Below, piece after piece: positions 1-14,461 of a DNA stretch of 15,826 nucleotides. The stretch lies in the NCBI GenBank assembly GCA_004357015.1, contig SMXE01000037.1, positions 1 to 15,826 of the forward strand, written 5' to 3'. Made by a program: the position numbers and the translations under genes. The DNA comes from Caldithrix sp. (GTDB lineage Bacteria; Zhuqueibacterota; Zhuqueibacteria; Oceanimicrobiales; Oceanimicrobiaceae). Every line of letters starts with the position of its first letter. Positions within the stretch are counted from its first letter, which is position 1. Under the pieces are notes generated by a model. The model saw only the letters and a list, made by a program, of their open reading frames with translations, made no database searches and had not been told where the DNA came from.

Positions 1-780
1 AAGCGCATCCAGCACGCCCTTTGAGTGGCCGTGAGCGGTATCGACCACAAGTACATCCACTCTTGCCTCTACCAGCGCGGCAGCTCTTTCGAGCACATCT
101 GCCGCAACACCTACTGCGGCGCCCGTGCGGAGCCTTCCCTGTTCATCTTTTGCCGCCGCCGGATAAAGGCGTTTTTTCTGAATGTCCTTTACCGTGATCA
201 AGCCCTTGAGATTCATTTGGCCATCGACGACCGGCAGCTTTTCAATGCGGTGCTTCTGCAGTATCTGCTCGGCTTCCTCAAGCGTCGTTCCTTCAGGCGT
301 GGTGATGAGATTCTCGCTGGTCATTACCTCCTTTATCCGGAGGTTGGTATCGATTTCAAATCTCAGATCGCGATTTGTGAGAATGCCGACAAGCTTGCTA
401 CCCTCCACAACCGGAATGCCGGAAATCTTGTACTGCTTCATCAAGGTCAGGGCGTCGCTGATCGGCCGGTCGCTGGTGAGTGTAATCGGGTTGTAAATCA
501 TGCCACTCTCGGATCGCTTTACCTTGTCAACTTCCCGCGCTTGCCTTTCGATGCTCATGTTCTTGTGAATGATTCCTATGCCGCCTTCGCGCGCGAGCGC
601 AATAGCAAGTTCTGATTCCGTGACCGTATCCATGGCCGCCGCCAGCAGCGGTATGGCCAGCGTAACGTTTCTCGTCAGCTTGCTTGCAGTGTCTGCGTCT
701 TTGGGCAAAATCTCGGAATAACCAGGAACGAGCAAGACATCGTCAAAGGTAAGAGCTTCACTTTTTATTTTCTGGGACAT
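1..780 (-). CDS. guaB: IMP dehydrogenase, 5' part (runs off the left edge)
   Basis: This gene encodes inosine-5'-monophosphate dehydrogenase, which oxidises IMP to XMP with NAD+ in the committed step of GMP synthesis in the cytosol. Only residues 1-260 of roughly 490 lie in the window; the reading frame is open to base 1. The N-terminus reads [20 protein letters not shown], the family hallmark, followed by AAMDTVTES and the start of the barrel. Two CBS domains (about residues 95-205) interrupt the barrel, with ISGIPVVEG and [10 protein letters not shown] motifs. The barrel then resumes with [13 protein letters not shown]. The catalytic cysteine loop lies outside the window. Two ATGs stand in tandem; the second, at 780, was chosen because GGAG sits 6 nt before it. 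The gene is separated from the upstream operon by a terminator and has its own promoter candidate, so it is probably an independent housekeeping unit. Confidence 0.97.
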
Positions 781-904: not shown

Positions 905-1522
905 TCAGAATAGCTCCAGCGTGTCATTCACTGAAGTTTCTTCGTCTTCGCCCGCAATCAGAAGAACCGCCTCAAACTCTTTGATGTCGAAAAGCAGCCT
1001 CGCTTGCGGGTTTTCCGGCTGCCCCACTTCCAATTCCTGTAGCAACCGGGCGCTGCCCGTCGGCGGCTCATCAAAATCCAGCTTCAGTTGTAGAGAACCC
1101 GAAAGGTCCCATTCGCGTGATAATTCCAAGGCGCAATCCTGAACCTTTTGCCTCCCCTTTTCCGCAATATCGCTGATGCGCTCAACTGTCATCTGACCCT
1201 CAATTGAATCTTCCAGTTCCGCAATCTTCTGGATGACAGAAATCCCCGCATATAGCCTGGCGATGAGATGAACGTCTGCAGATCTTCTCGAAGTGAAGAT
1301 TTGATCGAAAGTGGAGTGTATTTTAGCGGAGATATTCTCGACGCCGTCATACCCATGAATCATGGCAAGGTCACGCAGGCAGGCGGCAGTGTCTCGAATG
1401 AGTGCGATGTGTTCAAGGCAAGCAGGCGCGGTTTTTAGCCGTGCCAGGGAGGCTTTGATACGCAGTAGCCCCCGCATGATTTCACGAAAATAGTGGGTTT
1501 GTAATGTGTGCTCAGATGGCAT
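905..1522 (-). CDS. Degenerate Hpt-like (pseudo-phosphotransfer) protein
   Basis: This 205-aa cytosolic protein matches no family that I can name with certainty. Residues about 10-110 look like a CheA-P1/Hpt four-helix bundle. A first helix leads into the segment [15 protein letters not shown] (residues 47-61), which lines up with the classical HTLKGSAGMLGFDAI. In that alignment the phospho-accepting His becomes Ala47, while the following Leu, the small residue and the Gly are kept. A helix resembling the 'LIDLL..ALDAL' segment of CheA P1 follows ([16 protein letters not shown]). The C-terminal 85 residues are less clear and end in an acidic tail, ...DTLELF. The ATG at 1522 lies 23 nt after the ftsZ-like stop, with no strong Shine-Dalgarno, so translation may depend on the upstream gene. 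It is the last gene before the terminator. A receiver-docking role without phosphotransfer is inference. Confidence 0.6.
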
Positions 1523-1545: not shown

Positions 1546-3279
1546 CTAAAAGAGCTTGTCGAAGTACTTGACGGCTTCCCGAACGTTGGAGAAGTTATCA
1601 TGCCCCTCTTTGCTCGATTCGGCATCCGACTGCTTCTTCCCTGCGGATTTGCCATTGCCTTTTTGGATGTCTTCAGGTCGGCCTTTTCCATCACCGGCGC
1701 CGTTCTTGTCTTCGATATCCCCCGACGCAGCCTCTTCCTCTTCGGCGTCTTCCGGGCCAACCGGATGGGTCAACAATTCAAGAATATTACTGAACTTGAG
1801 TTTGATCTCATCTGCCTTTTCTGCGGCGTCGCTGTCACTTCCCATCATGTCGTGAACGGTTTGCGGAATTTTCCGGAAGAGATCGATGAGACTCTCTGAC
1901 AACTCAAACTCGCCATTCACCGCGCATTCGGTAATATCCTCCACCAACTCAGCGAGTTCAGCGATTTTTGAATAGCCAAAAAGCTCAGCAGAACTGTAGA
2001 CGGAAGAACAAGCATTCTTGATTTCGCGCAGAAGCTTTTCGTTGCCTGCACGGTCGCCCAGCGCCAGTCCCTTCACAGCCTCTGCCAGAACTGCGAGATC
2101 CGCATCGGTTTCTTCCATGAAAATGTCTGAAAACACCTTTTTGCCGCTCTTGTGCCCGTTGGTCTGCACCATAGCCGGCTCAGAAGTCTCAACTTCCTTG
2201 GCAGGTTCGGTTCCCACGTTCGCGGGTTTGCGCTTTTGTTCGGGCACGTCCAGATCGGATTTGCGGATGGCCATCTCAATTTCGGATGCTGAGTGTTTGT
2301 GAGATTGCAGGCAGGTCACGATAAGCATAACACGGATGGTGCTGCCCATGGCCTCATCCAGCCGGGCGCCCCAGATGATCTTCGCGGAAGAATCCAGCCG
2401 GCTGGCCACTGTCTTCATGACTGTCTTGGCCGCTTTGAGGGAGAGTTCCTGACCCCCGGAAATGTTGATCAAGGCGCTTTTTGCACCTGTGATGTCGACG
2501 TCCAGAAGCGGATTTTGCAGCGCTTTCTCCGCCGCCTGCTCGGCGCCACCGTCTGTGTCGGTTTCGCCCAGGCCGATCATGGCGAGCCCGCCGTTCTGCA
2601 TGATGGTTCGGACGTCGGCAAAATCCAGATTGACCAGGCCTTTCTCGGTCACCAATTCTGTGATGCCTTTCACCGCGTTGACGAGAATTTCATCGGCAAC
2701 CTTGAAAGCCTCATTCAGGGGCATGTCGGGGACCAGGTCTAAAAGACGATCATTTTGTACCACGATGACAGTGTCGACGTGGTTCTGTAGTAGGGCCAGA
2801 CCTTTGCGTGCATTGTCCCAGCGCACGATACCCTCGTCGCTAAATGGCAGCGTCACAACTGCGATGGTCAAAGCGCCCACCTTTTTGGCCACTTCTGCGA
2901 TCACCGGCGCCGAGCCCGTGCCGGTGCCACCACCGAGACCGCACGTGATGAAGACCATGTCGCTGCCTGTCAGCTTGTCCTCGATTTCTTGCAGGCTTTC
3001 CTTTGCCGACTCCGTGCCTTTTTCCGGGTCACTGCCCGCGCCGAGCCCATTCGTGATGTTCTTCCCAATCAGCACCTTATGATCGGCTTTGGCGTACAGC
3101 AAGTCTTGCGCATCGGTGTTGATTGCGACAACTTCGACTTCTTTGGTGCCGACTTCCAGCAATCTGGTAACTGTGTTGTTGCCGGCGCCACCGGTACCAA
3201 CAATTCTGATGATGGTCTTGTGCGATCCTAATACGGCTTCAAGCTCTTTGTCCGTGTCCGACTGATACGATGATGACAT
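1546..3279 (-). CDS. FtsZ-family GTPase fused to a C-terminal Hpt-like domain lacking its histidine
   Basis: This is a 577-aa tubulin/FtsZ-family GTPase, much longer than typical FtsZ (about 380). The GTPase core (residues about 20-325) is intact: GTGGAGNN (28-35), GLGAGSDP, the tubulin signature GGGTGTG (116-122), and a T7 loop N217-L-D219-F-A-D222 that would complete the active site of the neighbouring subunit. Polymerisation is therefore plausible. Phrases such as ITCGLGGGTGTG, VVTLPF and AFKVADEILVNAVKGITEL resemble archaeal FtsZ more than bacterial FtsZ. After a linker, residues 383-503 read as a CheA-P1/Hpt bundle: LLREIKNA, then SSVYSSAELFG (425-435) where HTLKGSAGMLG is expected, then IAELAELVEDI and SLIDLFRKIPQTVHDMM. 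Ser425 takes the place of the phospho-His. An acidic, lysine-rich tail ends in REAVKYFDKLF; the usual FtsA/ZipA-binding tail is not seen. There is no dcw gene nearby, so this is probably a second, specialised FtsZ. Confidence 0.9.
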   Translation of the reverse strand: MSSSYQSDTDKELEAVLGSHKTIIRIVGTGGAGNNTVTRLLEVGTKEVEVVAINTDAQDLLYAKADHKVLIGKNITNGLGAGSDPEKGTESAKESLQEIEDKLTGSDMVFITCGLGGGTGTGSAPVIAEVAKKVGALTIAVVTLPFSDEGIVRWDNARKGLALLQNHVDTVIVVQNDRLLDLVPDMPLNEAFKVADEILVNAVKGITELVTEKGLVNLDFADVRTIMQNGGLAMIGLGETDTDGGAEQAAEKALQNPLLDVDITGAKSALINISGGQELSLKAAKTVMKTVASRLDSSAKIIWGARLDEAMGSTIRVMLIVTCLQSHKHSASEIEMAIRKSDLDVPEQKRKPANVGTEPAKEVETSEPAMVQTNGHKSGKKVFSDIFMEETDADLAVLAEAVKGLALGDRAGNEKLLREIKNACSSVYSSAELFGYSKIAELAELVEDITECAVNGEFELSESLIDLFRKIPQTVHDMMGSDSDAAEKADEIKLKFSNILELLTHPVGPEDAEEEEAASGDIEDKNGAGDGKGRPEDIQKGNGKSAGKKQSDAESSKEGHDNFSNVREAVKYFDKLF

Positions 3280-3319: not shown

Positions 3320-5122
3320 TCACGCGAGTCCAACTGCACTGCCTGAGTAATTCTGAAGCCGGTGATGTGCAGAAGCTCCGCGCTGTACCCGCATATTCAG
3401 GTCATTGACAGAAGCCAGCACAGCCTGGAATTCTTCCCCGCTCGTTTCGTCGGGCGTCTCTAAACTTTCGAAATACCGAAAAGCATTCCTTATTAGTTTA
3501 TGTTCGACCGTTGAGAAGGAATAATTAGTGGCTAACATGTTTTTGATCAAATTCAGGACAACATTTGGCAACGCGCCCATCGGGTCAAGGTCGAGTTTCA
3601 GGGTTAGTCCGTAAAGGGCATTTGAAGCAAGTTCCAGGTCCTCGAGCGCAGTCTGGTTATTCTGCTGTTTTTCCAACGTTTGCAGTGCGTCTTCAATAAC
3701 GCTAAAGTAGAGCTCGGATTGCTGCCGGTAGATAGAAAAATTACCTTGGTGGACCGCGCGGATCACATGGGCGGCGACCGGCGCCGATTGCGCGCTGTCG
3801 GAATTGCTGCTGTTGGGCTTCTGGCCGTCTGACTCCGGTTTGTCTTTCTTGTCATCCGCGTCGTCTCCAACGCCCGCATCCTTGCCGTTGTCTTGCTTAG
3901 CTTGCTCGCGATTGATTTCAGAGATCAGTGTACGGATTTCATCGTCCTCTTCTCCAGGAATATTGAATGCATTCTCTGCCAATTCACTACCGTCTTCCTC
4001 GACGGGTAACGCAAATTCGTCGTGCGGATCAGATGGCTCTTCGGGATCAACTTCAATTTCCGGCTCCTCTTGCGGCTTCGCCAGCAGTTGTAAAATCTTC
4101 TCTGTGCTTTGCTTGACAGTGGCCGTATCCACATTCTCCGGATTTTCCAGAAGGCCTGCGAGAATGGCGCCTGTTTCAGCAGCCACCGCGTGGCCCACGG
4201 CATAATCTTCCAACTCTCGAACCTCGAGAACCGCTTTCCTTGCCTTTGACGTTATCTGCTCAAAAGCTTCGAACCCAAAAATTATCGCTGTCATAGTGAC
4301 CGATTCCAGCACCTCGGCAAATTTATTCAGATCTGTGGCACACATTTCAGACGGCGAAAGCCGAGCGACGAGATCGGTCATCGGCGCCATCAAATGCCTG
4401 ACTTTCTCACTAAAAACATCGATGACACTGGCAGGCTCTTCACTCATTTCGATCTTTGGCGTTTCAACTCCGACATCAGAAACCCTGGAACTACGCTTGT
4501 TGCTGATGTTGCCGTCTCCGGCAACGGCAGAGACATCCGGGTCTGCTCGCGTCTCCTGGACATCCTGTCGAGCCAGATCAGGCTCATCTGGCAAGCTTTT
4601 TTCACCAGCAAGGTCGAACTCTGCCCGATTGCTGCTGAACCGCTCGGAAGGCAGCTCCGGGCATTCCTGTGTATCGGTTGTTGGGGATTCGGCTTCGTCT
4701 GGCCCCACAGCCTTGACGGAGAGAAGCCGCCTCAACTCGGCTACAGCGCTTTCATCCTCGAACGCGAGCAAAGCGCTGTTTAAGACAGAATGCGCCAACC
4801 CCTCGATCTCAATTTTCATCCGTTCACCGTCGAGATGGGTCGTGTACAGATGCTGCGCGCCCTGAAACAGCTTGTCATTGAACTCGGCAAAGCCATCTAT
4901 TTCACCGAGGGATTCAAGCTCTTCAACCGCATCTTCAGCAGCCACCAGCTTGTCCATCAGGTTGCCGAGCAGCAGGTACTTTTGTTCCTCCCCTTTGCTG
5001 ACCTCGTTGAGCAGTGGCTCTAATTCTTGGTTGATGCAGCAAAAGAAATAGCTGCTCGGATGAAAAAACCGATTTATCAACTCCCGCTGAAACTCAACTT
5101 CCGTCAAAGGATTCTCGCTCAT
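3320..5122 (-). CDS. Large acidic protein with two degenerate Hpt-like domains
   Basis: I recognise no named family for this protein of about 600 aa. It is probably cytosolic, since no signal peptide or membrane segment is visible. The order is: a helical N-terminal region (1-135), an acidic Pro/Ser-rich linker (140-230), a helical domain (about 233-348), a second very acidic linker (350-450), and a helical C-terminal domain (about 452-560). Both later domains resemble Hpt/CheA-P1 bundles. ESVTMTAIIFGFEAF (273-287) aligns with HTLKGSAGMLGFDAI and puts Glu273 at the histidine position. NALYGLTLKLDLDPM (501-515) puts Asn501 there. Multi-Hpt proteins with acidic linkers recall ChpA/PilL, but no kinase domain follows. 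A TTG at 5164 would add 14 residues; the ATG at 5122 is preferred, with AGGGAG 11 nt upstream. The ftsZ-like gene begins 40 nt downstream. Confidence 0.6.
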   Translation of the reverse strand: MSENPLTEVEFQRELINRFFHPSSYFFCCINQELEPLLNEVSKGEEQKYLLLGNLMDKLVAAEDAVEELESLGEIDGFAEFNDKLFQGAQHLYTTHLDGERMKIEIEGLAHSVLNSALLAFEDESAVAELRRLLSVKAVGPDEAESPTTDTQECPELPSERFSSNRAEFDLAGEKSLPDEPDLARQDVQETRADPDVSAVAGDGNISNKRSSRVSDVGVETPKIEMSEEPASVIDVFSEKVRHLMAPMTDLVARLSPSEMCATDLNKFAEVLESVTMTAIIFGFEAFEQITSKARKAVLEVRELEDYAVGHAVAAETGAILAGLLENPENVDTATVKQSTEKILQLLAKPQEEPEIEVDPEEPSDPHDEFALPVEEDGSELAENAFNIPGEEDDEIRTLISEINREQAKQDNGKDAGVGDDADDKKDKPESDGQKPNSSNSDSAQSAPVAAHVIRAVHQGNFSIYRQQSELYFSVIEDALQTLEKQQNNQTALEDLELASNALYGLTLKLDLDPMGALPNVVLNLIKNMLATNYSFSTVEHKLIRNAFRYFESLETPDETSGEEFQAVLASVNDLNMRVQRGASAHHRLQNYSGSAVGLA

Positions 5123-5186
5123 TTGGAATATCGCTCCCTGACACCCGAACGGATGACAAAACAACTAAGCGCAGGTATTCATGCTA

Positions 5187-5876
5187 TTAGTTCTTGTAAG
5201 TATCATAAAGTTTTAGAATGGCCGGAATGTACCCACGCGTCTCCTCAAAGAGGACTTCATCGTTGCGTCCACTCGCAAGCCACCTTTCGGCACGGTCCGA
5301 GCCGCCGTTGTAAGCGGCAAGCCCACCGTCAATGTGGTATACTTCTATTAGCATGGACAGATAGCGGCACCCCATGCGGATGTTTCTTACCGGATCGAAC
5401 AGCACCTGTCGCGCATTGGTCCATTCGATACTTTCATGTTTGCTTAGAAACTTGCCCGTGCGCGGCATGAGTTGCATCAGTCCCAGAGCGCCCGCCGGCG
5501 AAACGACGTTCGGCCGCCATGTCCTTGCACTTTCATGTGTGATGGTCGCGCAGATCAAATTGACATCAAGGTTGTTGTACCGAATGCTCATCTCGTAAAT
5601 CACATTTGCAATGGCGTATTTATCTTCCTCGGAGAACTTTTTATTGTAGACGGACATGATCGAGATAACCTTGTTGATGGCACTCTGACGAAAGGCATCC
5701 ACCTCTACGATAGCCATCAAATCCAGAGTCTGCTCTTCGACATACAACAATCGCCGGATGTCCTCCTGAATGACCTTGAGATTGGCAGAAAAACTATTCA
5801 TTGAAAAAAACATGAGAGACATAAGAAGCATAAATGTCGACTTCTTCACAACATTGAAGAACATTACGGGAACCAA
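5187..5876 (-). CDS. Secreted lytic transglycosylase (SLT/Slt70-type catalytic domain)
   Basis: This 229-aa enzyme is predicted to cleave the MurNAc-GlcNAc bond of peptidoglycan outside the cytoplasmic membrane, forming 1,6-anhydro-MurNAc. The N-terminus has a Lys-containing start, a hydrophobic stretch (about 13-27) and a plausible cleavage site after FSA (29-31). The catalytic domain shows the family motifs in order: ITHES with catalytic Glu115, SPAGALGLMQLMP, NIRMGCRYLSML, LAAYNGG and ETRGYIPAILKLY. It is small, with no LysM or other wall-binding domain visible. The start is TTG at 5876: a strong AAAGGAGG lies 9 nt before it, whereas the first ATG (5864) would be 21 nt away. It sits between a single-domain response regulator and the pseudo-Hpt/FtsZ genes, which suggests wall remodelling coupled to this system. 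Confidence 0.92.
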   Translation of the reverse strand: MVPVMFFNVVKKSTFMLLMSLMFFSMNSFSANLKVIQEDIRRLLYVEEQTLDLMAIVEVDAFRQSAINKVISIMSVYNKKFSEEDKYAIANVIYEMSIRYNNLDVNLICATITHESARTWRPNVVSPAGALGLMQLMPRTGKFLSKHESIEWTNARQVLFDPVRNIRMGCRYLSMLIEVYHIDGGLAAYNGGSDRAERWLASGRNDEVLFEETRGYIPAILKLYDTYKN

Positions 5877-5908: not shown

Positions 5909-6331
5909 CTATGAAGCATGTCTGGCAACCACGTTGGCATCAGACACACTTTGGGCACAATGAAGGTTCTGCCTTACCCGAAGTAAAGCATCTTCGACCG
6001 CAGACAATAGCCGTTCAATGTCAAGCGGTTTGGTCAGCCAAAAATCTATTCCCGTTTTCTTTCCGGCGGTGTAACTTTCCGGAGTGGTGTATGCCGTCAT
6101 GATGATCGATGCCGCACCAGAGTTCACCCGCTTTACCGCCGCGACTACCTGCAACCCTGAGAGATCAGGCAGCCGCAAGTCTGACACGACAATATCCACT
6201 TCCGGTCTTGCCGCAGCGATGCCTTCCCTGCCGTTATTGGCTGTGTCAACCGTATAGCCCTCGTAGGACAAAATTTCTACCAAACCTTCCCGGGTGTTTT
6301 GGTCGTCTTCGACCAGTAGGACGTGCGGCAA
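5909..6331 (-). CDS. Single-domain response regulator (REC only)
   Basis: This 140-aa CheY/Spo0F-like receiver has no output domain. It has all the phosphorylation residues: the acidic pair Asp9-Asp10, phospho-acceptor Asp51 in VVSDLRLPDLSG, Thr in IIMTAY, and Lys in WLTKPLD. After the fold ends, a 20-residue tail follows, without a recognisable motif. It probably acts by protein-protein contact, either as a relay step or as a binding partner for Hpt-like domains in the operon. The start is TTG at 6331, with AAAAGGA about 8 nt upstream; that ribosome site overlaps the stop of the parA-like gene, so translation is likely coupled. No ATG occurs near the fold's beginning, and the first strand (HVLLVEDD) starts at residue 3, which supports TTG. 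Confidence 0.93.
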   Translation of the reverse strand: MPHVLLVEDDQNTREGLVEILSYEGYTVDTANNGREGIAAARPEVDIVVSDLRLPDLSGLQVVAAVKRVNSGAASIIMTAYTTPESYTAGKKTGIDFWLTKPLDIERLLSAVEDALLRVRQNLHCAQSVSDANVVARHAS

Positions 6332-6346
6332 GTTAATTTCCTTTTC

Positions 6347-7156
6347 TCAGATTACTTTTACTTCTTGATTATCGTCCGCCACCGGCACGAAATTGCCATT
6401 CTCGCCCACAATTTCGCGCGCCAGCTCATAATAACTGGTGGCGCCCTTGCAGTTCCGGTCAAAACTCAAGACCGGCTGCCCGTGGTAAGGCACTTCGGCC
6501 AGTTTTATGTTGCGCGGAATCATGGTCTTGAACACCATGCCCTGCAGCGTGTAGCGGATCTTTTCGATCACAATCCTGGTGAGATTGGTGCGCAAGTCCA
6601 CCATCGTGAGCAAGAAGCCGCGATAGCGTAAATTCGGGTTGTTTTCGTTTTTGATGATCCTGGTCAGTTTCAGAAAACGGCCCAGCGCTTTCAGCGCGTA
6701 GTACTCGCACTGAATGGGCACGATGAGCGAATCCGCGGCAATCAATGCGTTGAACGTGAGATTGCCAAGCGACGGTGGACAGTCAATAAGAATAAAATCA
6801 TACATCTCCCGGATGCCGGCAAGTTCGTCTTTCAGCTTGATCTTTGAGGCCACGCCGATCAGCTTGCGCCGTTCGTTCTCATCTGACCATAAATTGGTGG
6901 GGATAAAATCAAAATTCTCGACCCCGGTCGGATGAACCGCCTCTTCGATCGGCAAGGCATCGAGAAATACGTCTAAAATGCCGGCTTTGATGTCGTAGCG
7001 CGTAAACCCGAAACTCGATGCAACACTGCCCTGCGGGTCGATATCAACCAGCAAGGTTCGATGCCCAAGCGACGCCAGGCTGGCGCCCAGATTAACCGAA
7101 GTGGTGGTTTTTCCCACTCCGCCCTTTTGACTGGCAATCGCAATAACTTCGCCCAT
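6347..7156 (-). CDS. ParA/Soj-family ATPase (no parB beside it)
   Basis: This 269-aa ATPase of the ParA/MinD superfamily carries the deviant Walker A KGGVGKTT (residues 11-18) with the signature lysine, then LLVDIDPQGS (A') and a Walker B-like FILIDCPPSLG. The downstream phrases LIVPIQCEYYAL and IPRNIKLAEVPYHGQPV are typical of chromosomal ParA/Soj. Such proteins form ATP-dependent dimers on the nucleoid and position DNA or protein cargo. No ParB gene or parS-like site is visible here, and the neighbours are signalling genes, so cargo positioning seems likelier than chromosome partition. The start is ATG at 7156, with GAGG 7 nt upstream; a TTG two codons earlier is the alternative. It starts 18 nt after the PATAN regulator's stop and its own stop abuts the next gene's ribosome site. 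Confidence 0.93.
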   Translation of the reverse strand: MGEVIAIASQKGGVGKTTTSVNLGASLASLGHRTLLVDIDPQGSVASSFGFTRYDIKAGILDVFLDALPIEEAVHPTGVENFDFIPTNLWSDENERRKLIGVASKIKLKDELAGIREMYDFILIDCPPSLGNLTFNALIAADSLIVPIQCEYYALKALGRFLKLTRIIKNENNPNLRYRGFLLTMVDLRTNLTRIVIEKIRYTLQGMVFKTMIPRNIKLAEVPYHGQPVLSFDRNCKGATSYYELAREIVGENGNFVPVADDNQEVKVI

Positions 7157-7174
7157 AATCAATCCTCTACCTTG

Positions 7175-7849
7175 TCACGGCGTCAGGCGCTGGTGCAGCA
7201 ACACCTGCCAATCCCTGGAAATAGTTCTGGCTTCCGGAGTCTCATGACAATGAATTCTGAAGGTGCCTCTGTTCCAGTTCAGGATATTGAAGAACGCCCT
7301 TTCCCCTTTCAGATTTCCGCACTCGGCATGCACCACATCACCGTTCCTAAAGTAAATGACTCCTTTTTGCTCGCGCTGCGAAACTGACAGCGAGGTATTA
7401 CTCTTGGTGGTGCAGTTGAGCTCCACCAGTTTCCGGATGCCGGCCTTTTCAATCCGCCCATCGAAACCATGTTTTTGAACGCCCAGAGCCTCCAGAATCA
7501 GCCGTTTCAAATGCCCGATGTCGAAAGGCTTCTCGATATAGAAAAAGCTGCCGAGTGACTCGGCTCGTTCCATCATATCCTGTGACCCATAGGCAGACAT
7601 GATAATAATTTTCACGTCTGGATGAAGCCGGCGGGCTTCCCGGATGACCTCAAGGCCGTTTCTACCCGGCATGCGGATGTCTGACACAACGAGTTGAAAC
7701 GCTTCTTCCCGAATCAAATCGTAAGCCTGGTCGCCACTGTTAACGCAGGTTACGTCCAGATCAAGGCCGCTATTCAACAGGCTGCGTGAGACCGCCCAGG
7801 TAATATCCTCTTCGTCGTCTGCTATCAGAATCTTTTTCTGTTCACTCAT
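7175..7849 (-). CDS. Response regulator with C-terminal PATAN (DUF4388) domain
   Basis: This protein of about 224 aa begins with a receiver domain (residues 1-122): acidic pair Asp11-Asp12, phospho-acceptor Asp57 in VVSDIRMPGRNG, Ser in IIMSAYG, and Lys in IEKPFD. The C-terminal half (about 132-215) has the DUF4388/PATAN pattern: FDGRIEKAGIRKLVELN, then GVIYFRNGDVVHAECGNLKGERAFFNIL and WNRGTFRI. PATAN is a protein-interaction output first noted in cyanobacterial PatA; there is no DNA-binding domain. The start is the second of two tandem ATGs, at 7849, with GGAG 6 nt upstream. It is the first gene of block B after a 427-nt gap, so a promoter for the ParA-SLT-FtsZ set probably lies just upstream. 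Confidence 0.92.
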   Translation of the reverse strand: MSEQKKILIADDEEDITWAVSRSLLNSGLDLDVTCVNSGDQAYDLIREEAFQLVVSDIRMPGRNGLEVIREARRLHPDVKIIIMSAYGSQDMMERAESLGSFFYIEKPFDIGHLKRLILEALGVQKHGFDGRIEKAGIRKLVELNCTTKSNTSLSVSQREQKGVIYFRNGDVVHAECGNLKGERAFFNILNWNRGTFRIHCHETPEARTISRDWQVLLHQRLTP

Positions 7850-8100
7850 CATCAACTCCAAGGTCGAAGAAACCTCCCTTGCCCTGCGCAAAACTCATAC
7901 CAAAAAGCTGTATTGGTTTTGCCTGACAAGCATTGCAGGGAATGAAGCTGCTCCAAGAGATGATTTCGTCATCGAAATCAAAATCTTGAGCAAAGGAAGG
8001 ATGCAGGAGCCGCATAAACAAATAACTCACGCCCAAAGACAATAATAACACACATATTTATGAATAAACAACTTACAATGACATAACGCGGAGTGGCTCC

Positions 8101-8276: not shown

Positions 8277-9647
8277 TTACGCAATGCCATAGTTTTTCAT
8301 TTTCTCGCGCAGTGTCGAGCGAGAGATACTCAAAGTGCGCGCGGTCTTGGATTTATTGCCTTCGCATTTTTTGAGGATGTGCTCTATGTGGCGCCTCTCC
8401 ATCGCTTCCAGAGAATCGCCATCTCCGCTCAGATCGGCAAACGCATCCGAAATCGCGATCCTGGAGACGCCGTGCAGCAATTCGAGCGGCAGGTGTTCCG
8501 ATTGTAACTCATTCACCTCGCACAAAATCACAGCTCGTTCCACCACGTTCTTGAGCTCTCTGACATTGCCAGGCCAGCGATAATTCAGCATCTTTTGAGT
8601 GGCATCCGCGGTAATGCCTTTGATCGATTTGCCAAATTCTTTGTTATGGTGTTCAATAAACAACATTACAAGCGGGAGGATGTCTTCCTGACGGTCACGC
8701 AGCGGTGGGATGTTAAGCACCATCACTTTCAGACGATAGTACAGGTCTTCGCGAAACAGCTGCTGCTCGACACAGTCCTCGAGATTCCGGTTTGTGGCGG
8801 CGATGATCCGGACATCGATCTGGACATCGGAGACGCTGCCGATTCTACGGAACGATTGCGTCTCCAGCACACGCAGAAATTTCGGCTGAATCGACATCTG
8901 CATACAGGAAATTTCATCCAGGAAAATAGTGCCGTTATGCGCCATTTCAAAGATGCCCTTTTTCATGTTCTTGGCGTCGGTAAAAGCGCCTTTCTCGTGG
9001 CCAAAGAGCTCACTTTCCAGCAGGTTTTCAGGAATGGCGCTGCAATTGATTTTCACCAGTGAATTCTCCCCGCGGGCGCTCCAGTTGTGCACGGCGTTTG
9101 CCACCAGTTCTTTGCCTGTGCCACTCTCCCCTTGAATCAGCACAGACGTCTTCGGTGTGCCGGCAACGATCTTGATCATCTTTTTCAACTCGCGCATCGA
9201 CTCCGCTTCACCATAAAGTTCGTTGTCCGGGAACGACTCTTTGTGCTGAGTTTTCAAACGGGTGACTTCTTTCTTAAGGTTGTGTGTTTCCAGCGCCTTT
9301 GCCACCACAAGTTTCAACTGATCCAGTTCAAACGGCTTCATAAGGTAGTCGTAGGCGCCCTTCTTCATGGCATCTACCGCTGGACGGGCATCCGTCGAGG
9401 CAGTAATCATGATCACCAGAATATCAGGATCTTTGTCCTTAACGGACTCCAGGATCTGAAGGCCGTTAATATCCGGCAATTTGATGTCGAGCAGAACAAG
9501 GTCGATGATATCCTGTCCCAGAATGGAAAGGCCATGTTCCCCGGTAAATGCCGTCCGTACATGATTCCCCTTCTTGCGTAAGAACTCGGCCAGAGTCTTG
9601 CACAAATCTTCATTGTCTTCAATAATCAGTATGTTCGCATTCGCCAT
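8277..9647 (-). CDS. NtrC-family sigma-54-dependent response regulator
   Basis: This 456-aa enhancer-binding protein has REC (1-120), AAA+ (about 143-375) and a Fis-type helix-turn-helix (about 428-454). The receiver has the Glu10-Asp11 pair, phospho-acceptor Asp54, Thr82 and Lys104. The AAA+ domain has Walker A GESGTGKE (173-180), Walker B GTIFLDEI (239-246), and AATNRNLE and FREDLYYRL motifs. The sigma-54-contacting loop reads GAFTDA (220-225) instead of the consensus GAFTGA, a variant that does occur in working family members. The HTH reads NKSKTARTLSISRSTLREKM. It starts 5 nt after the stop of the REC-PAS-PAS kinase, with GGAGG 10 nt before the ATG, so the two are almost certainly a cognate NtrB/NtrC-like pair. 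Phosphorylation should promote ATPase-driven opening of sigma-54 promoters; the targets are unknown. Confidence 0.96.
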   Translation of the reverse strand: MANANILIIEDNEDLCKTLAEFLRKKGNHVRTAFTGEHGLSILGQDIIDLVLLDIKLPDINGLQILESVKDKDPDILVIMITASTDARPAVDAMKKGAYDYLMKPFELDQLKLVVAKALETHNLKKEVTRLKTQHKESFPDNELYGEAESMRELKKMIKIVAGTPKTSVLIQGESGTGKELVANAVHNWSARGENSLVKINCSAIPENLLESELFGHEKGAFTDAKNMKKGIFEMAHNGTIFLDEISCMQMSIQPKFLRVLETQSFRRIGSVSDVQIDVRIIAATNRNLEDCVEQQLFREDLYYRLKVMVLNIPPLRDRQEDILPLVMLFIEHHNKEFGKSIKGITADATQKMLNYRWPGNVRELKNVVERAVILCEVNELQSEHLPLELLHGVSRIAISDAFADLSGDGDSLEAMERRHIEHILKKCEGNKSKTARTLSISRSTLREKMKNYGIA

Positions 9648-9652
9648 TTTGG

Positions 9653-11551
9653 CTAATCCTCCGTCGGTAACAAAACTCTAAAAACCGTGCCCTTGCCTGA
9701 TTCACTTTCAACCTGAATATCGCCCTGATGCTCAGTCATGATTCTGTACACAATTGAAAGCCCCAATCCAGCGCCCTGCGGTTTGGTCGTAAAGAACGGG
9801 TTAAATATTGATGGCAGCACATCCGCCTCAATCCCTTCTCCGGTATCCTTGAGCAGAACTTCCACGTAAAGAGAACTTTTGCTCTTAATCGGAAAAGACT
9901 GGCCACGCCGGTCTACCCGGCTAAGTGTGGCGATTTTCGAACTTGCCTCAAGCTTAAGCTCGCCACCGTTCGGCATGGCATCGAGGGCGTTTAAATATAA
10001 GTTGACAAATATCTGCTGAATTTGATAATAGTCCACATACACGAGCGGCAGATCGGGATCATAATGCTCTGCATAGCTGACAGATTGCCCTCGCATCCTG
10101 TTTTCCACCAGCGCCGTCACCTCCTGCACAATTTCCTGCAGGCGATGATGTTCGCGGCGTGGCTGGCGCGGCTTCGCGTAAGAAAAGAACGTCTTCAGCA
10201 GATCGTCCATACGGTTCACCTGGCGCACGATGCGGGCGATGTACTCTCGTCGCGCATCATCCGGGTCGATCTCCAACTCCAGCGTTTGCGCGATAGTCTT
10301 GATGCCAGCCAATGGGTTTCTGATCTCGTGGGCGATGCCGGACGCCAGCACGCCCATCGACGCCAGGCGATCCATGCGCTGCACCTCAAACTGCATCTGC
10401 TTGATCTGGGTGATGTCTTTAAAGGAAATGATGGTGCCCACGCGCCGGTTTTGCGTATCAAACCGTGGCGTAACCGAGAACCCTACAAAAATCGAGTGGC
10501 CGTTCTTGGACTTGAGCTCCATCTCGCGGTTTAGCAGGCCTTGCTCCGGGTCGTCGATGTTCATAAGTAACCGGTCGCAATCATCTTTGGAGAAAACATC
10601 TTCCAGCTTCTCTTGCAATACCTGCTCAGAAGTGATACCCAGGATTTCGCTGGCACCGTTGTTAAAGGAGGTAATCTTGTGGTCGAGGTCGATGGTCATT
10701 AAACCCGACCCCATGCCCTGAATGATGCTTTCATTGAAATTCTTGAGTTCGATTATCTCTTGCTCGAGCTGCTTCTTTTCGGTGATATTCCGAGCGATGG
10801 CGACACAGCCAACCACTTTCCCCTTGTTAAAGATCGGATTGATGTTGATCGAAAGACAGATGGGAGCGCCATTGGCATGCAGCACCATCACTTCGAAAAT
10901 ACTCGATTTACCATTGATGGTTTTTTCAAAATTGCGCTCCGCGTCTGCCCTGTCCTCCTGCACAATCAATTCGAAAAAGGAGCGATCCAGCCATTCCTGC
11001 TTCTCAAAGCCCGTAATGCTCTGAAAACGCCGGTTGATGAAAACAAGTCTGGCCTGCGGGTTTAACGTGAAAATCAAATCGCTGGCGTTTTCGATCAGGT
11101 CCTGGTACTTGTATTCCGTACGCTTGACCTGTTCCTTCAACTCTTTGTTCTTCAAGCGCAGATCGTTTTGGATGAAAACGTTATCGATGATGTTCAAAAG
11201 CTCGCGGTTGCCAAACGGCTTCATTAGAAACGCACTGAGTCCCAGTTCGAACAACGCGTGCCGGTCTACATCTGACTCCGAAGCAGCAGTCAGCATGATA
11301 ACAGACGTCTCGCGCAATACGCTGTAGTCGGGATTGCTAACGAACTGCTCAAGAAACTCAAACCCGTTCATCCCGGGCATATAATAGTCCAGAACGACCA
11401 GATCCGGGGCATGCTTCAGAGCGGCTGCCAACCCCTCCGGGCCACTGATGGCCGAAACGTAATCATAGCCAGCCCTCTTTATAATGATGCCACCGATTTC
11501 CAGCATGTCCGGGTCATCGTCGACAAAGAGAATTTTGCGTTCTTTTTTCAT
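9653..11551 (-). CDS. Soluble histidine kinase, REC-PAS-PAS-DHp-ATPase (NtrB-like)
   Basis: This 632-aa cytosolic kinase has no membrane segment. An N-terminal receiver (1-128; Asp11-13 cluster, phospho-acceptor Asp55, Thr88, Lys111) is joined by a coiled helix to PAS1 (about 146-270, ending in the ARNITEKKQ linker) and PAS2 (about 275-395, ending in FKDITQIKQ). The DHp domain contains phospho-acceptor His408 in GIAHEIRNPLAGI. The ATPase domain shows the N-box IFVNLYLNALDAM, G1 DTGEGI, the F-box NPFFTTK and G2 GAGLGLSI. The HEIRNPL form of the H-box is typical of NtrB/AtoS-type kinases. Its own receiver sits at the N-terminus and so could gate kinase activity. The next gene is the NtrC-type partner. 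The ribosome site upstream of the ATG is weak (AAAAAGTAG). Confidence 0.95.
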   Translation of the reverse strand: MKKERKILFVDDDPDMLEIGGIIIKRAGYDYVSAISGPEGLAAALKHAPDLVVLDYYMPGMNGFEFLEQFVSNPDYSVLRETSVIMLTAASESDVDRHALFELGLSAFLMKPFGNRELLNIIDNVFIQNDLRLKNKELKEQVKRTEYKYQDLIENASDLIFTLNPQARLVFINRRFQSITGFEKQEWLDRSFFELIVQEDRADAERNFEKTINGKSSIFEVMVLHANGAPICLSININPIFNKGKVVGCVAIARNITEKKQLEQEIIELKNFNESIIQGMGSGLMTIDLDHKITSFNNGASEILGITSEQVLQEKLEDVFSKDDCDRLLMNIDDPEQGLLNREMELKSKNGHSIFVGFSVTPRFDTQNRRVGTIISFKDITQIKQMQFEVQRMDRLASMGVLASGIAHEIRNPLAGIKTIAQTLELEIDPDDARREYIARIVRQVNRMDDLLKTFFSYAKPRQPRREHHRLQEIVQEVTALVENRMRGQSVSYAEHYDPDLPLVYVDYYQIQQIFVNLYLNALDAMPNGGELKLEASSKIATLSRVDRRGQSFPIKSKSSLYVEVLLKDTGEGIEADVLPSIFNPFFTTKPQGAGLGLSIVYRIMTEHQGDIQVESESGKGTVFRVLLPTED

Positions 11552-11823: not shown

Positions 11824-13308
11824 CTACCCAATAACGTCCGGACGCCCTGTTTCCTCTACACCCATGTTGTACTTGGGCAGGATAAAAGAAAACGTTGATC
11901 CCTGGCCAAGCACGCTGCTGACTCTTATCTTGCCGCCGTGGATTTCCACAATTTCCTTAACCAGCGGCAAACCCAGGCCAGACCCCGTCGTGTCCTGAAC
12001 TGCATCGTTGTCAGTGACGCGATAGAATTTGCCGAAAATGTGGGGCAATGACTTTTCCGAAATGCCATAGCCAGTGTCCTCAACATCGATTGTTATCTGG
12101 TCATCCAATTCGGACAGGCGCACCTTCACCTTTGCTGCTTCCGGGCTGTATTTTACTGCGTTGGAGAACAGGTTGAGGATAGCCTGCTCCATCATGTCGC
12201 GGTCCACGTCCAGGAGCAAGACTTCTTCCGGTGCCAGGAACTCGACGGAAATATTTTTCCTGTCCGCCAATTGCGAGTTGAAGTCAAGCACTTTTTGAAT
12301 CAACATTTTCATGTCGACCGGCGTTTTGTGCAACTGGCTCTTGCCCGCTTCGATTTTGGAGATGTCCAGAAACTTGTTGATGAGATCATTGAGGCGGGTT
12401 GATTCTTTCAAAATAATGGACGCGTATTCTTCTGACTGCTGGCGCGTCACCGAATTGTCAAGCAAGAGCTCACTAAAGCCGGAAATGCACGTGAGCGGCG
12501 ACCGTAGTTCATGCGCCACCATAGACACCAATTCTGTCTTGAGCCGGTCGATTTCCTTCTCGCGTGTGATGTCGCGTAAAATGCTCACGATCCCGATCAA
12601 CTCGTTTTTTTCGTTCGTCATGCATGCGGCCCGCGCCTGCAAGGTCACGGGCTTCCAGCCGCCCAGAGGGTCAAGCGTAATCTCGACGCTTTCAATTTTG
12701 CTACCGCTGGCGCTGGCAATTTCCTTAATAAATGCGACCAATGCTTCATTATTAACCGTCGTTTCTAACGCGGCGTTTTCAAGGTTTTCACTGTCCCACC
12801 CAAACCAACGCTGCGCCACAGAATTGATAAGCAATATTTTTTGTTGGGGGTCGGTGACGATGACGCCGTCGGCGATATTCTTCAGAATGGTTTCGGTCTT
12901 GTTCTTCTCGTTGATGATCTTGTTCAGGTTCATTTCATCCAGCCGGCGAAGCTCGGTCACCATATAGTTGAAGATTCTCGCCAGCCGGCCAATCTCATCT
13001 TGTGATTCCACCGGCACGCGCTGAGAAAAATTGCCGCGCGCTATCTCGGTGGCCGTCTGGATAAAATGCTTGATTGGCCGTGTGATGTGTTTGCTGAAAA
13101 CATAGGCGCCGACGCCGGCAAGCATCAAGGCAAGAACAACCAGGCCGTAATAGATGAACGGCAGGGTACTCTCGCTCCCCCGAATCGAGCCGTGTTTAAA
13201 GTACAGGAAATAAATCCAGGAGAAGCCGAGCGGTACGCTTGCGGCGAAAAAGGTCACCACAAAAAGTTTCTTCGCCAAAGATGTCCGAATCGAGAACTGT
13301 GCCTTCAT
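11824..13308 (-). CDS. Membrane histidine kinase, HAMP-PAS-DHp-ATPase (PhoR/WalK-like)
   Basis: This inner-membrane sensor kinase has 494 aa. Two membrane helices (about 15-37 and 50-71) enclose only a dozen outside residues, so sensing may occur in the membrane or in the cytosolic PAS domain. A HAMP segment (72-125; ITRPIKHFIQTATEIARGNF, DEIGRLARIFN) leads to a PAS domain (about 137-250, ILRDITREKE) and the DHp with phospho-acceptor His266 in MVAHELRSPLTCISGF. The ATPase domain has the N-box ILNLFSNAVKYSP, G1 DTGYGI, F-box IFGKFYRV and G2 GSGLGLPL. The layout resembles PhoR and WalK. The ATG at 13308 follows a GTG and a short purine tract (AAAGAGAAG). No transcription-factor partner is adjacent, so the partner receiver may be the REC-GGDEF upstream or one of block B. 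Confidence 0.95.
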   Translation of the reverse strand: MKAQFSIRTSLAKKLFVVTFFAASVPLGFSWIYFLYFKHGSIRGSESTLPFIYYGLVVLALMLAGVGAYVFSKHITRPIKHFIQTATEIARGNFSQRVPVESQDEIGRLARIFNYMVTELRRLDEMNLNKIINEKNKTETILKNIADGVIVTDPQQKILLINSVAQRWFGWDSENLENAALETTVNNEALVAFIKEIASASGSKIESVEITLDPLGGWKPVTLQARAACMTNEKNELIGIVSILRDITREKEIDRLKTELVSMVAHELRSPLTCISGFSELLLDNSVTRQQSEEYASIILKESTRLNDLINKFLDISKIEAGKSQLHKTPVDMKMLIQKVLDFNSQLADRKNISVEFLAPEEVLLLDVDRDMMEQAILNLFSNAVKYSPEAAKVKVRLSELDDQITIDVEDTGYGISEKSLPHIFGKFYRVTDNDAVQDTTGSGLGLPLVKEIVEIHGGKIRVSSVLGQGSTFSFILPKYNMGVEETGRPDVIG

Positions 13309-13381
13309 CACTTCTCTTTAGTACCTGATAAGTCAAATTTTGTCGTTTTGGGGCAGGATTTTTTTCTTCATCGCCCCAACC

Positions 13382-13474: not shown

Positions 13475-14425
13475 TTAGGAATGTACAATAACAGTGTTCC
13501 TTCCGGCCTGCTTTGCCAGATACAATCGCTGGTCTGCAGTGTTCACTAAACTGTCAAAATCGGCCGCATCGCCAGGGAAAGTCGCAACGCCGCTGCTGAT
13601 CGTAATTTTCTTTAGCGGCTGGCGCTTTTCAAATTTAAAGGCACTTTTTTCAACCAATTTACGGATTTTCTCAGCCACGATCTTGGCTGCGTCTTTGTTC
13701 GTCTCGACCAACACCAGTGCAAACTCCTCACCGCCGTATCTGATCGCCATATCGATATTTCGTATGTTGTCTTTCAACAGCGCACCAATGGTTTTCAACA
13801 CCTTATCACCGGCCGGATGGCCATTGGTGTCATTATAATGTTTGAAATGGTCAATATCGATCATGGTCAGCGATACGTTGAGTTCATGACGGCGTGCGCG
13901 GTTCAATTCCTGCTCCAACTGCTCCTTGAAGTAGCGGTAGTTGTACAAGCCGGTCAATCCGTCTGTAATGGCCAATTGCCGGAGTTCCTCCTTTGCTTGT
14001 TGCAACTGAATCACTTTTTCCTGCAGCTCGTCGTGCAGATATTTTATGCGCAACAGCGAGCGCACCCGCGCCAGAAGCTCGAGCTTGTTGAACGGTTTGC
14101 TGATAAAGTCATCCGCGCCCGAATCGATGCCTTTGACTTTGTCTTCGACTTCATTGAGGGCGGTTACCATGATAACAGGAATGAATCGGGTCAACTCCTG
14201 CGACTTCAGAAATTTGCAGACATCGAAGCCGTTCATTTTCGGCATCATGACGTCCAGCAAAATCAAATCCGGCGCATGCTGTTGCACTTGTTCGATGGCT
14301 TCGGCGCCATCAGAGGCCGTCACCACATTGTACCCCTCCGAGGAAAGATAAGTGTTGAGCAATTGGATGTTTACCGGTACATCGTCTACGACCAGTATCG
14401 ACTTGGACTTGGGGTTGTTTGGCAT
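13475..14425 (-). CDS. Response regulator diguanylate cyclase (REC-GGDEF)
   Basis: This 316-aa enzyme is predicted to make cyclic di-GMP from two GTP when phosphorylated. The receiver (1-125) has Asp14-Asp15, phospho-acceptor Asp58 in LILLDVMMPKMNG, Thr in VTALNE and Lys in ISKPFN. A helical linker (LQEKVIQLQQAKEELRQLA) leads to the GGDEF domain (about 150-312), which begins with DGLTGLYNYRYF. The active site is GGEEF (231-235), and the inhibitory site RNID (222-225) sits exactly five residues before it, so product feedback is expected. It has one receiver, unlike PleD with two. The ATG at 14425 is chosen because the fold starts right after it. A TTG at 14461 would add 12 residues, and neither has a clear ribosome site. 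It is the first gene of block A. Confidence 0.93.
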   Translation of the reverse strand: MPNNPKSKSILVVDDVPVNIQLLNTYLSSEGYNVVTASDGAEAIEQVQQHAPDLILLDVMMPKMNGFDVCKFLKSQELTRFIPVIMVTALNEVEDKVKGIDSGADDFISKPFNKLELLARVRSLLRIKYLHDELQEKVIQLQQAKEELRQLAITDGLTGLYNYRYFKEQLEQELNRARRHELNVSLTMIDIDHFKHYNDTNGHPAGDKVLKTIGALLKDNIRNIDMAIRYGGEEFALVLVETNKDAAKIVAEKIRKLVEKSAFKFEKRQPLKKITISSGVATFPGDAADFDSLVNTADQRLYLAKQAGRNTVIVHS

Positions 14426-14461
14426 GGTATCGTACGTCGCGCTCGCGCTCTTGCCTTTCAA

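Follow-up and report, generated by a model that had tools for sequence, protein, structure and literature searches.

An archaeal-type FtsZ with a histidine-less CheA-P1-like tail in a two-component gene cluster of Caldithrix sp. and its relatives

FtsZ usually ends in a C-terminal partner-binding peptide, SepF serves as the anchor of archaeal FtsZ, and further FtsZ-superfamily families, FtsZl-1 and FtsZl-2, are found in bacteria and archaea. Here, we describe a gene from a 15,826-nucleotide stretch of Caldithrix sp. DNA (contig SMXE01000037.1, from a 2.2 Mb genome that is 70% complete; hereafter the window) that encodes an FtsZ-family protein whose tail resembles the CheA P1, or histidine phosphotransfer (Hpt), domain without its phosphorylated histidine. 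This protein, which we call FtsZ-pseudo-Hpt, differs from the archaeal FtsZ1 (M. jannaschii FtsZ, PDB 1w58/2vap) in being bacterial, in occurring mostly beside a canonical FtsZ, and in being about 200 residues longer than the archaeal open frames (362-399 residues). It passes the FtsZ equivalog cutoff, which we take to set it apart from FtsZl-1 and FtsZl-2. Its operon also encodes a response regulator with a receiver and a DUF4388 domain, which we take to be the PATAN domain.

Like CheA P1 and Hpt domains (PF01627), the tail matches the Hpt profile and is predicted to form five helices, with FGY where CheA has FGF; unlike them, it lacks the phospho-histidine and is fused to a cytoskeletal GTPase, not to a kinase. 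Histidine-less domains of this kind are described in Pseudomonas aeruginosa, where FimL carries glutamine at both Hpt sites (PMC3019171) and a scaffold role has been suggested for the non-phosphorylated Xpt domains of ChpA (PMC12632253). According to the accessible parts of these papers, such domains act in signalling tied to polar structures, as a parallel to our tail, and differ from it in controlling a pilus and in being unfused to a polymer-forming protein; FimL is likened by description only. PatA of Anabaena (CheY-like/PATAN), which acts on a divisome and for which two-hybrid interactions with ZipN and SepF are reported, resembles the receiver-DUF4388 protein in its PATAN and receiver domains; it differs in acting on the canonical Z-ring, and the accessible part of its description reports no interaction with FtsZ (PMC7380572).

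Among the matches listed by text searches of open-access PMC, none was seen to describe a fusion of FtsZ with Hpt, in agreement with the first-pass annotation of this DNA, which knew of none. Database entries already record Hpt (PF01627, as precomputed domains) on some such FtsZ proteins; the architecture is thus recorded in databases, though undescribed as far as found in open-access PMC.

A CheA-P1-like tail without its histidine

The first-pass annotation placed the gene at 1546..3279, coordinates that proved correct; the open reading frame list assigns it to the minus strand. It further proposed that the tail follows CheA P1 over residues 383-503, which profile searches and structure prediction bear out. 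Pfam Hpt (PF01627) matches residues 385-469 (E 2.6e-5; 24.8 bits, where the cutoff is 24.6), the NCBIfam CheA model covers 383-503 (E 2.9e-5, far under that model's cutoff for a whole CheA), and a PDB search with the tail alone returns the CheA P1 chains 8c5v (E 3.3e-5) and 1i5n (E 3.8e-4). The top PDB match is BRIC1 (3e-10), a repeat protein whose matching stretches resemble CheA P1. A hidden Markov model (HMM) of the tail, built from an alignment of 29 sequences that includes the window's own, gives 32.6 bits for E. coli CheA and no more than 8.8 for any of 500 shuffled CheA P1 sequences. AlphaFold2 predicts helices at 377-403, 410-434, 437-454, 462-479 and 483-504. The region 380-510, for which the annotation had suggested a structure prediction, is not disordered in this model: the predicted local distance difference test (pLDDT) lies at 80-93 per ten-residue block over 381-500 (mean of the whole model 75.6; predicted template modelling score 0.55), and low-confidence stretches flank the domain at 344-376 and 507-562. 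Foldseek and VIA-align, run on the full FtsZ model, gave only FtsZ in their top 50 rows and were uninformative for the tail. In PHROGs, the tail weakly matches phrog_22644, a family without function (E 1.5e-4). At the level of sequence profiles and predicted structure, these results confirm residues 377-504 as a CheA-P1/Hpt-type five-helix domain. Neither outcome that the annotation named as a refutation, a predicted structure that is disordered or no bundle, or a lack of Hpt/CheA-P1 profile similarity, was obtained.

A generic helical bundle, evolutionarily unrelated to CheA P1, might also give an Hpt match, and it would suit both a Pfam score 0.2 bits over the cutoff and the recognition of Hpt at E<=0.01 in 17 of the 29 aligned sequences, with 12 missed. 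We regard such a coincidence as very improbable, given that the matches include CheA-specific models and CheA chains of the PDB, that the tail HMM sets CheA 24 bits apart from the 500 shuffles, and that related domains of neighbouring proteins match CheA P1 structurally above other bundles.

Other FtsZ homologues share the tail, a point that the annotation had proposed to check. Our census comprised 222 proteins, namely the window's own and 221 among the matches listed in three protein searches, some of them length-limited; the tail is present in 220, and the two proteins without it have 320 and 406 residues. Likewise, it occurs in all 40 fetched loci of relatives (E<1e-6). Names given to relatives include candidate division KSB1 bacterium, Caldithrix sp., Calditrichaeota bacterium, bacterium and, once, Bacteroidetes bacterium. 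With a distant member's tail as the query, and candidates limited to 0.55-1.75 times the query length, at least 100 proteins were retrieved, each with an FtsZ-family domain.

Ser425 aligns with His48 of CheA and with the histidine of a true Hpt (GHSLKG) from the same genome, so that the earlier observation of a lost phospho-histidine with a serine in its place stands for the window. As a general rule, replacement by serine fails: in the 195 distinct tails among the matches listed, to which all tail counts below refer, the commonest residue at the acceptor site is lysine (93), followed by serine (44), threonine (19), then alanine, isoleucine and others. Histidine occupies the acceptor column in none of 54 aligned rows, and it appears neither there nor within two columns of it in any of the 195 tails. 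The CheA lysine three residues past the histidine is kept in 8 of them. Because histidine is absent from all 195, the tail is, as judged by this alignment, an inherited pseudo-Hpt whose histidine loss is old and fixed, not a recently damaged domain.

The accessible text of PMC12632253 describes ChpA Xpt domains with Ser/Thr, and the tail might similarly be phosphorylated on serine or threonine, which stand at the site in 63 of the 195 tails, with serine in the window. Considering that 132 tails have neither, that lysine alone accounts for 93, and that the CheA lysine survives in those 8 only, we find this highly improbable. As a general rule for the tail, Ser/Thr phosphorylation was rejected, lysine being the commonest residue at the site.

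An archaeal-type core and a canonical FtsZ

The intact FtsZ core noted in the first-pass annotation, with GGGTGTG at residues 116-122 and the T7 loop NLDFAD at 217-222, is present as described. The glycines of the GTPase motif, N217, D219 and D222 are invariant in all 29 aligned sequences, among which a single T-to-S change at 121 is the sole departure in the GTP motif. The protein scores 413.5 bits with the NCBIfam ftsZ equivalog model, above the cutoff of 295.2. It thus has the motifs and the score of an FtsZ GTPase, and polymerisation itself is predicted.

Among solved structures, the core lies nearest to M. jannaschii FtsZ1 (394 bits), followed by 9v7v (340 bits; organism not stated), by S. 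aureus FtsZ (289 bits), the best among the PDB chains recognisable as bacterial, and by E. coli and Klebsiella FtsZ (about 251 bits). Each of 12 archaeal genomes holds one copy at 376-421 bits, labelled FtsZ1 here, and 11 of the 12 hold a second at 263-306 bits, labelled FtsZ2 (two in G048; in G045, the second copy is weak only, at 88 bits); both labels were assigned in this analysis from the scores and the tree. That tree (67 rows, LG+G4) represents bacteria only by 20 canonical FtsZs from the same class and by E. coli, whose end branch is long, and it omits three divergent archaeal FtsZ-superfamily rows (L157, L159 and L160). In it, 21 pseudo-Hpt FtsZs form a single clade (support 100/100) that falls on the archaeal side relative to the canonical FtsZ of its own lineage and E. 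coli (branch 100/100). Their union with FtsZ1 has a support of 91/95, below the tool's starred level. A locus search ranked archaeal FtsZ top after three KSB1/Caldithrix-type loci; its patterns favour the archaeal motif, and the ranking was not used. PHROGs returned a PhuZ match to the core.

Within this sample, the sequences firmly place the core as archaeal-type, and it is likely of the FtsZ1 type. It was probably gained from archaea by an ancestor inside this bacterial phylum. The accessible part of PMC9871819 reports FtsZ transfers among archaea and mentions no bacterial FtsZ1. SepF, the partner expected of an archaeal FtsZ1, was found in none of the 40 genomes examined, which comprise that of the window and those of 39 relatives, by a search that was positive in 7 of 14 control genomes.

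Across the same 40 genomes, 27 encode the long-form FtsZ, and 24 of those 27 also a canonical FtsZ, which in G009 is a fragment only; none was found in the remaining three (G024, G037 and the 70%-complete genome of the window). The canonical gene sits after ftsA, as confirmed by Pfam, in all five neighbourhoods examined. More broadly, 49 of 82 genomes of the phylum carry the long form at E<=1e-90 in open frames of at least 513 residues, and 33 do not at that threshold, some perhaps from incompleteness. FtsZ-pseudo-Hpt is best read as a dedicated second FtsZ. In three genomes of family f2 (G008, G013 and G018), there is one more FtsZ-like frame, divergent and 511-521 residues long, that matches the N-terminal GTPase part only.

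The last 12 residues of the protein, VREAVKYFDKLF, are strongly amphipathic, with a moment of 0.74. Of the 566 windows along the protein, 3 come up to this value, this one counted, as do 6 of 5000 shuffles. This terminal helix is kept in near relatives and not in every distant one; as a guess, it may contact the membrane or a partner directly. Its position, which resembles that of the usual partner-binding peptide, and the intact catalytic motifs would also fit an extra Z-ring component in ordinary division, with the tail merely standing in for the usual C-terminal linker. We consider this unlikely in view of the canonical FtsZ found alongside in 24 of 27 genomes and next to ftsA wherever examined, the 33 of 82 phylum genomes without the long form at E<=1e-90 (incompleteness may account for some), and a sigma-54 control, discussed below, that would be atypical for a housekeeping gene.

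The signalling cluster, its promoter and the Hpt-like neighbours

In the conserved cluster to which FtsZ-pseudo-Hpt belongs (Table 1) are genes for two histidine kinases and for five proteins with a receiver, of which one is itself a kinase; a ParA-type ATPase and a lytic transglycosylase are encoded there as well. Intergenic gaps, taken from the open reading frame coordinates, are 12-40 bases from the receiver-DUF4388 gene through HptS. HptL adjoins FtsZ in 17 of a first set of 20 relatives. Of a second set of 20, 8 contain HptL and two show FtsZ alone, and ten, which come from distant families (f18, f19, f20, f22 and f23), preserve the order receiver-GGDEF, HAMP kinase, hybrid kinase, NtrC-type activator, receiver and FtsZ, the operon being reduced in all ten to one receiver and FtsZ-pseudo-Hpt. 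That receiver gene is directly 5' of FtsZ on the same strand (gap -35 to 135) in every case, and its product has the acid pocket, phospho-Asp and lysine in all ten, with Thr or Ser at the switch position; the receiver is the only Pfam domain in the three such proteins checked. Family f8 (L128, L130, L200 and L202) encodes a longer tailed FtsZ of 711-898 residues, with no cluster in the fetched stretch. Several relatives likewise keep guaB adjacent to the cluster or close by.

Table 1. Features of the FtsZ-pseudo-Hpt locus, in the gene order of the window from the receiver-GGDEF regulator to guaB
Feature	Position	Strand	Remarks
Receiver-GGDEF response regulator	13475..14461	minus	
Histidine kinase with HAMP and PAS	11824..13311	minus	Pfam
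Hybrid histidine kinase	9653..11551	minus	Receiver-PAS-PAS-HisKA-HATPase; Pfam
NtrC-type sigma-54 activator	8277..9647	minus	Receiver, AAA+, Fis helix-turn-helix; Pfam
-24/-12 sigma-54-type promoter TGGTATGAGTTTTGC	7888..7902	minus	10/10 relaxed-consensus positions; precedes operon of receiver-DUF4388, ParA, RR1, transglycosylase, HptL, FtsZ, HptS
Receiver + DUF4388 response regulator	7175..7852	minus	Pfam; listed frame starts at 7891, likely true ATG 7852
ParA/Soj-type ATPase	6347..7162	minus	Pfam AAA_31, E 1.7e-51
RR1, single receiver domain	5909..6331	minus	Pfam PF00072; phospho-Asp present
SLT-type lytic transglycosylase	5187..5876	minus	Pfam PF01464, E 3.4e-20
HptL	3320..5164	minus	614 residues; own N-terminal helical domain 22-148
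HptL, CheA-P1-like domains	residues about 243-364 and 463-606		Without histidine
FtsZ-pseudo-Hpt	3279..1546	minus	577 residues
FtsZ-pseudo-Hpt, core	residues ~10-330		Archaeal-type FtsZ core, then linker
FtsZ-pseudo-Hpt, tail	residues 377-504		CheA-P1-like domain without histidine; Ser425 at His position
FtsZ-pseudo-Hpt, C-terminus	after residue 504		Disordered linker, then amphipathic helix 566-576
HptS	905..1522	minus	205 residues; Hpt-like without histidine, nearest HptL middle domain
guaB (IMP dehydrogenase)	1-927	minus	After HptS; cut by contig end

The strict sigma-54 pattern TGGCAC has no match over the window. We report sites of a relaxed pattern, TGGYAYN5TTGC, which allows Y at two positions and was picked after the sites had been seen; scores of 9 or 10 of 10 were accepted, the scan reached 130 bases into the receiver gene, and the shuffles used the same pattern. 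Such a site lies 5' of the first operon gene in 33 of the 34 clusters scanned, L132 being the miss. In the first scan, which included the window, 23 of 24 clusters had one, against 0.44 expected from Markov shuffles; further scans gave 8 of 8 (0.26 expected) and then 2 of 2. Distances from the listed gene start were at most 60 bases for 21 of 24 in the first scan, with sites farther upstream in L126 and L133, as also in the later-scanned L123 and L124. Seven of the 40 loci were left out of the 34-cluster scan, namely L118, L183 and L187, where the gene was cut off or unseen, and the four loci of f8. None of those four has such a site before FtsZ itself, nor do any of five canonical FtsZ genes, which sit inside an operon, in the 400 bases upstream. 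As background, 10/10 sites number 33 in the 1.17 Mb of all 40 loci with both strands counted. Because of the promoter's position, the receiver-DUF4388 gene of the window would start at ATG 7852 and not at 7891.

The window's genome encodes a protein with a sigma-54 DNA-binding domain, and an NtrC-type activator adjoins the promoter in most clusters, in the window just upstream of it. In place of GAFTGA, the usual motif for contact with sigma-54, the window's activator has GAFTDA. Conservation of the site across clusters thus establishes the sigma-54-type promoter as a sequence feature, and the operon would be under NtrC/sigma-54 control. Part of the coupling between signalling and filament is probably transcriptional. 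In the accessible text of PMC12316311, which deals with sigma-54 regulons, no FtsZ target is mentioned. On account of the gene context and the conserved sigma-54-type promoter, the link between FtsZ-pseudo-Hpt and two-component signalling, already proposed from the first reading, is strongly supported. The setting of the gene in this cluster, with a promoter type of its own, suggests that the filament is under the control of environmental signals.

The genes flanking FtsZ-pseudo-Hpt encode three further Hpt-like domains, none with histidine in the aligned rows. Compared with the FtsZ tail by hhalign, the HptL middle and C-terminal domains and HptS give 92.6 to 97.5, and a control domain 1.1; HptS reaches 98.7 with the HptL middle domain and 92.6 with the tail. 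These relatives of the tail match CheA P1 structurally above other bundles. The HMM of the HptL C-terminal domain matches E. coli CheA weakly (14.6 bits), and those of HptS and of the HptL N-terminal domain do not match it; HptS is called Hpt-like solely through its sequence kinship to the HptL domains. HptL occurs in 31 of the 49 genomes with this FtsZ and in 1 of the 33 without it (Fisher p 7.6e-9, kinship ignored), after two of 34 HptL matches (G025 and G064), located inside FtsZ frames, had been dropped. Long HptS forms (L121, L122, L129 and L131) have at their end a short peptide with a positive charge, such as KLRKLFGMY, that could anchor in the membrane.

The mutual kinship of these domains, their common lack of histidine and the co-occurrence of HptL with this FtsZ would all be expected if pseudo-Hpt domains were structural connectors of one another, the tail, HptL and HptS forming a scaffold that tethers the polymer while receivers act through transcription only. 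This arrangement is possible, if somewhat doubtful: distant families keep the tail together with a receiver and have no HptL or HptS in the neighbourhood, and f8 has neither nearby.

Proposed mechanism and significance

We give about an even chance to the reading that FtsZ-pseudo-Hpt is a second FtsZ polymer switched on by two-component and sigma-54 signalling, with a tail on which partners, probably receivers, would dock. In such a mechanism, the sensor kinases of the cluster would activate the neighbouring NtrC-type regulator, which, together with sigma-54, would switch on the operon of receiver(s), ParA, transglycosylase, HptL, FtsZ and HptS. The pseudo-Hpt would then serve as a docking arm that binds a receiver from the same operon, and perhaps HptL or HptS. 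FimL (PMC3019171) and the suggested scaffold role of non-phosphorylated ChpA domains (PMC12632253) set a precedent for silent Hpt domains in a connecting role, and in Anabaena a PATAN-type receiver protein contacts a divisome (PMC7380572). Assembly or placement of the filament would follow the signal state, in concert with ParA and the cutting of the cell wall. The task of the polymer would be conditional and localised, such as a special constriction, a pole or a site of envelope remodelling, as opposed to everyday division. The fuller evolutionary account is held more tentatively, at somewhat under an even chance: a bacterial phylum acquired an archaeal FtsZ1, which was fused to a silenced CheA-P1 and came under sigma-54 and phosphorelay control, and phosphorylated receivers bind the polymer directly and set where or when it assembles, a cytoskeletal filament thus being the output of two-component signalling.

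Several points weigh against these interpretations. The margin of the Pfam Hpt match is thin, at 0.2 bits over the cutoff; bacterial sampling in the FtsZ tree is narrow, being confined to the protein's own lineage and E. coli; family f8 retains the tail with no cluster nearby; and the binding of receivers to the tail is a step that we infer. It is plausible that receivers dock on the tail and that signalling would thereby act directly on a filament, as the first-pass annotation suggested. That annotation was right about the core, the tail and the lost histidine, which we find across much of the phylum (49 of 82 genomes), and its link to signalling is strongly supported; it missed the archaeal type of the core, the ordinary FtsZ alongside, the pseudo-Hpt domains of the neighbours and the probable transcriptional coupling.

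The usual endpoint of a two-component system is transcription, an enzyme or a motor; here an FtsZ polymer bears the fold with which receivers normally make contact. The absence of histidine from the tail makes the function of a pseudo-Hpt testable, and an archaeal-type core beside a canonical FtsZ offers a case in which to ask how an additional FtsZ acquires a different role. Across much of the phylum, the cluster keeps its kinases, receivers and sigma-54-type promoter; if docking on the tail proves true, signals would reach the cytoskeleton directly in these bacteria.
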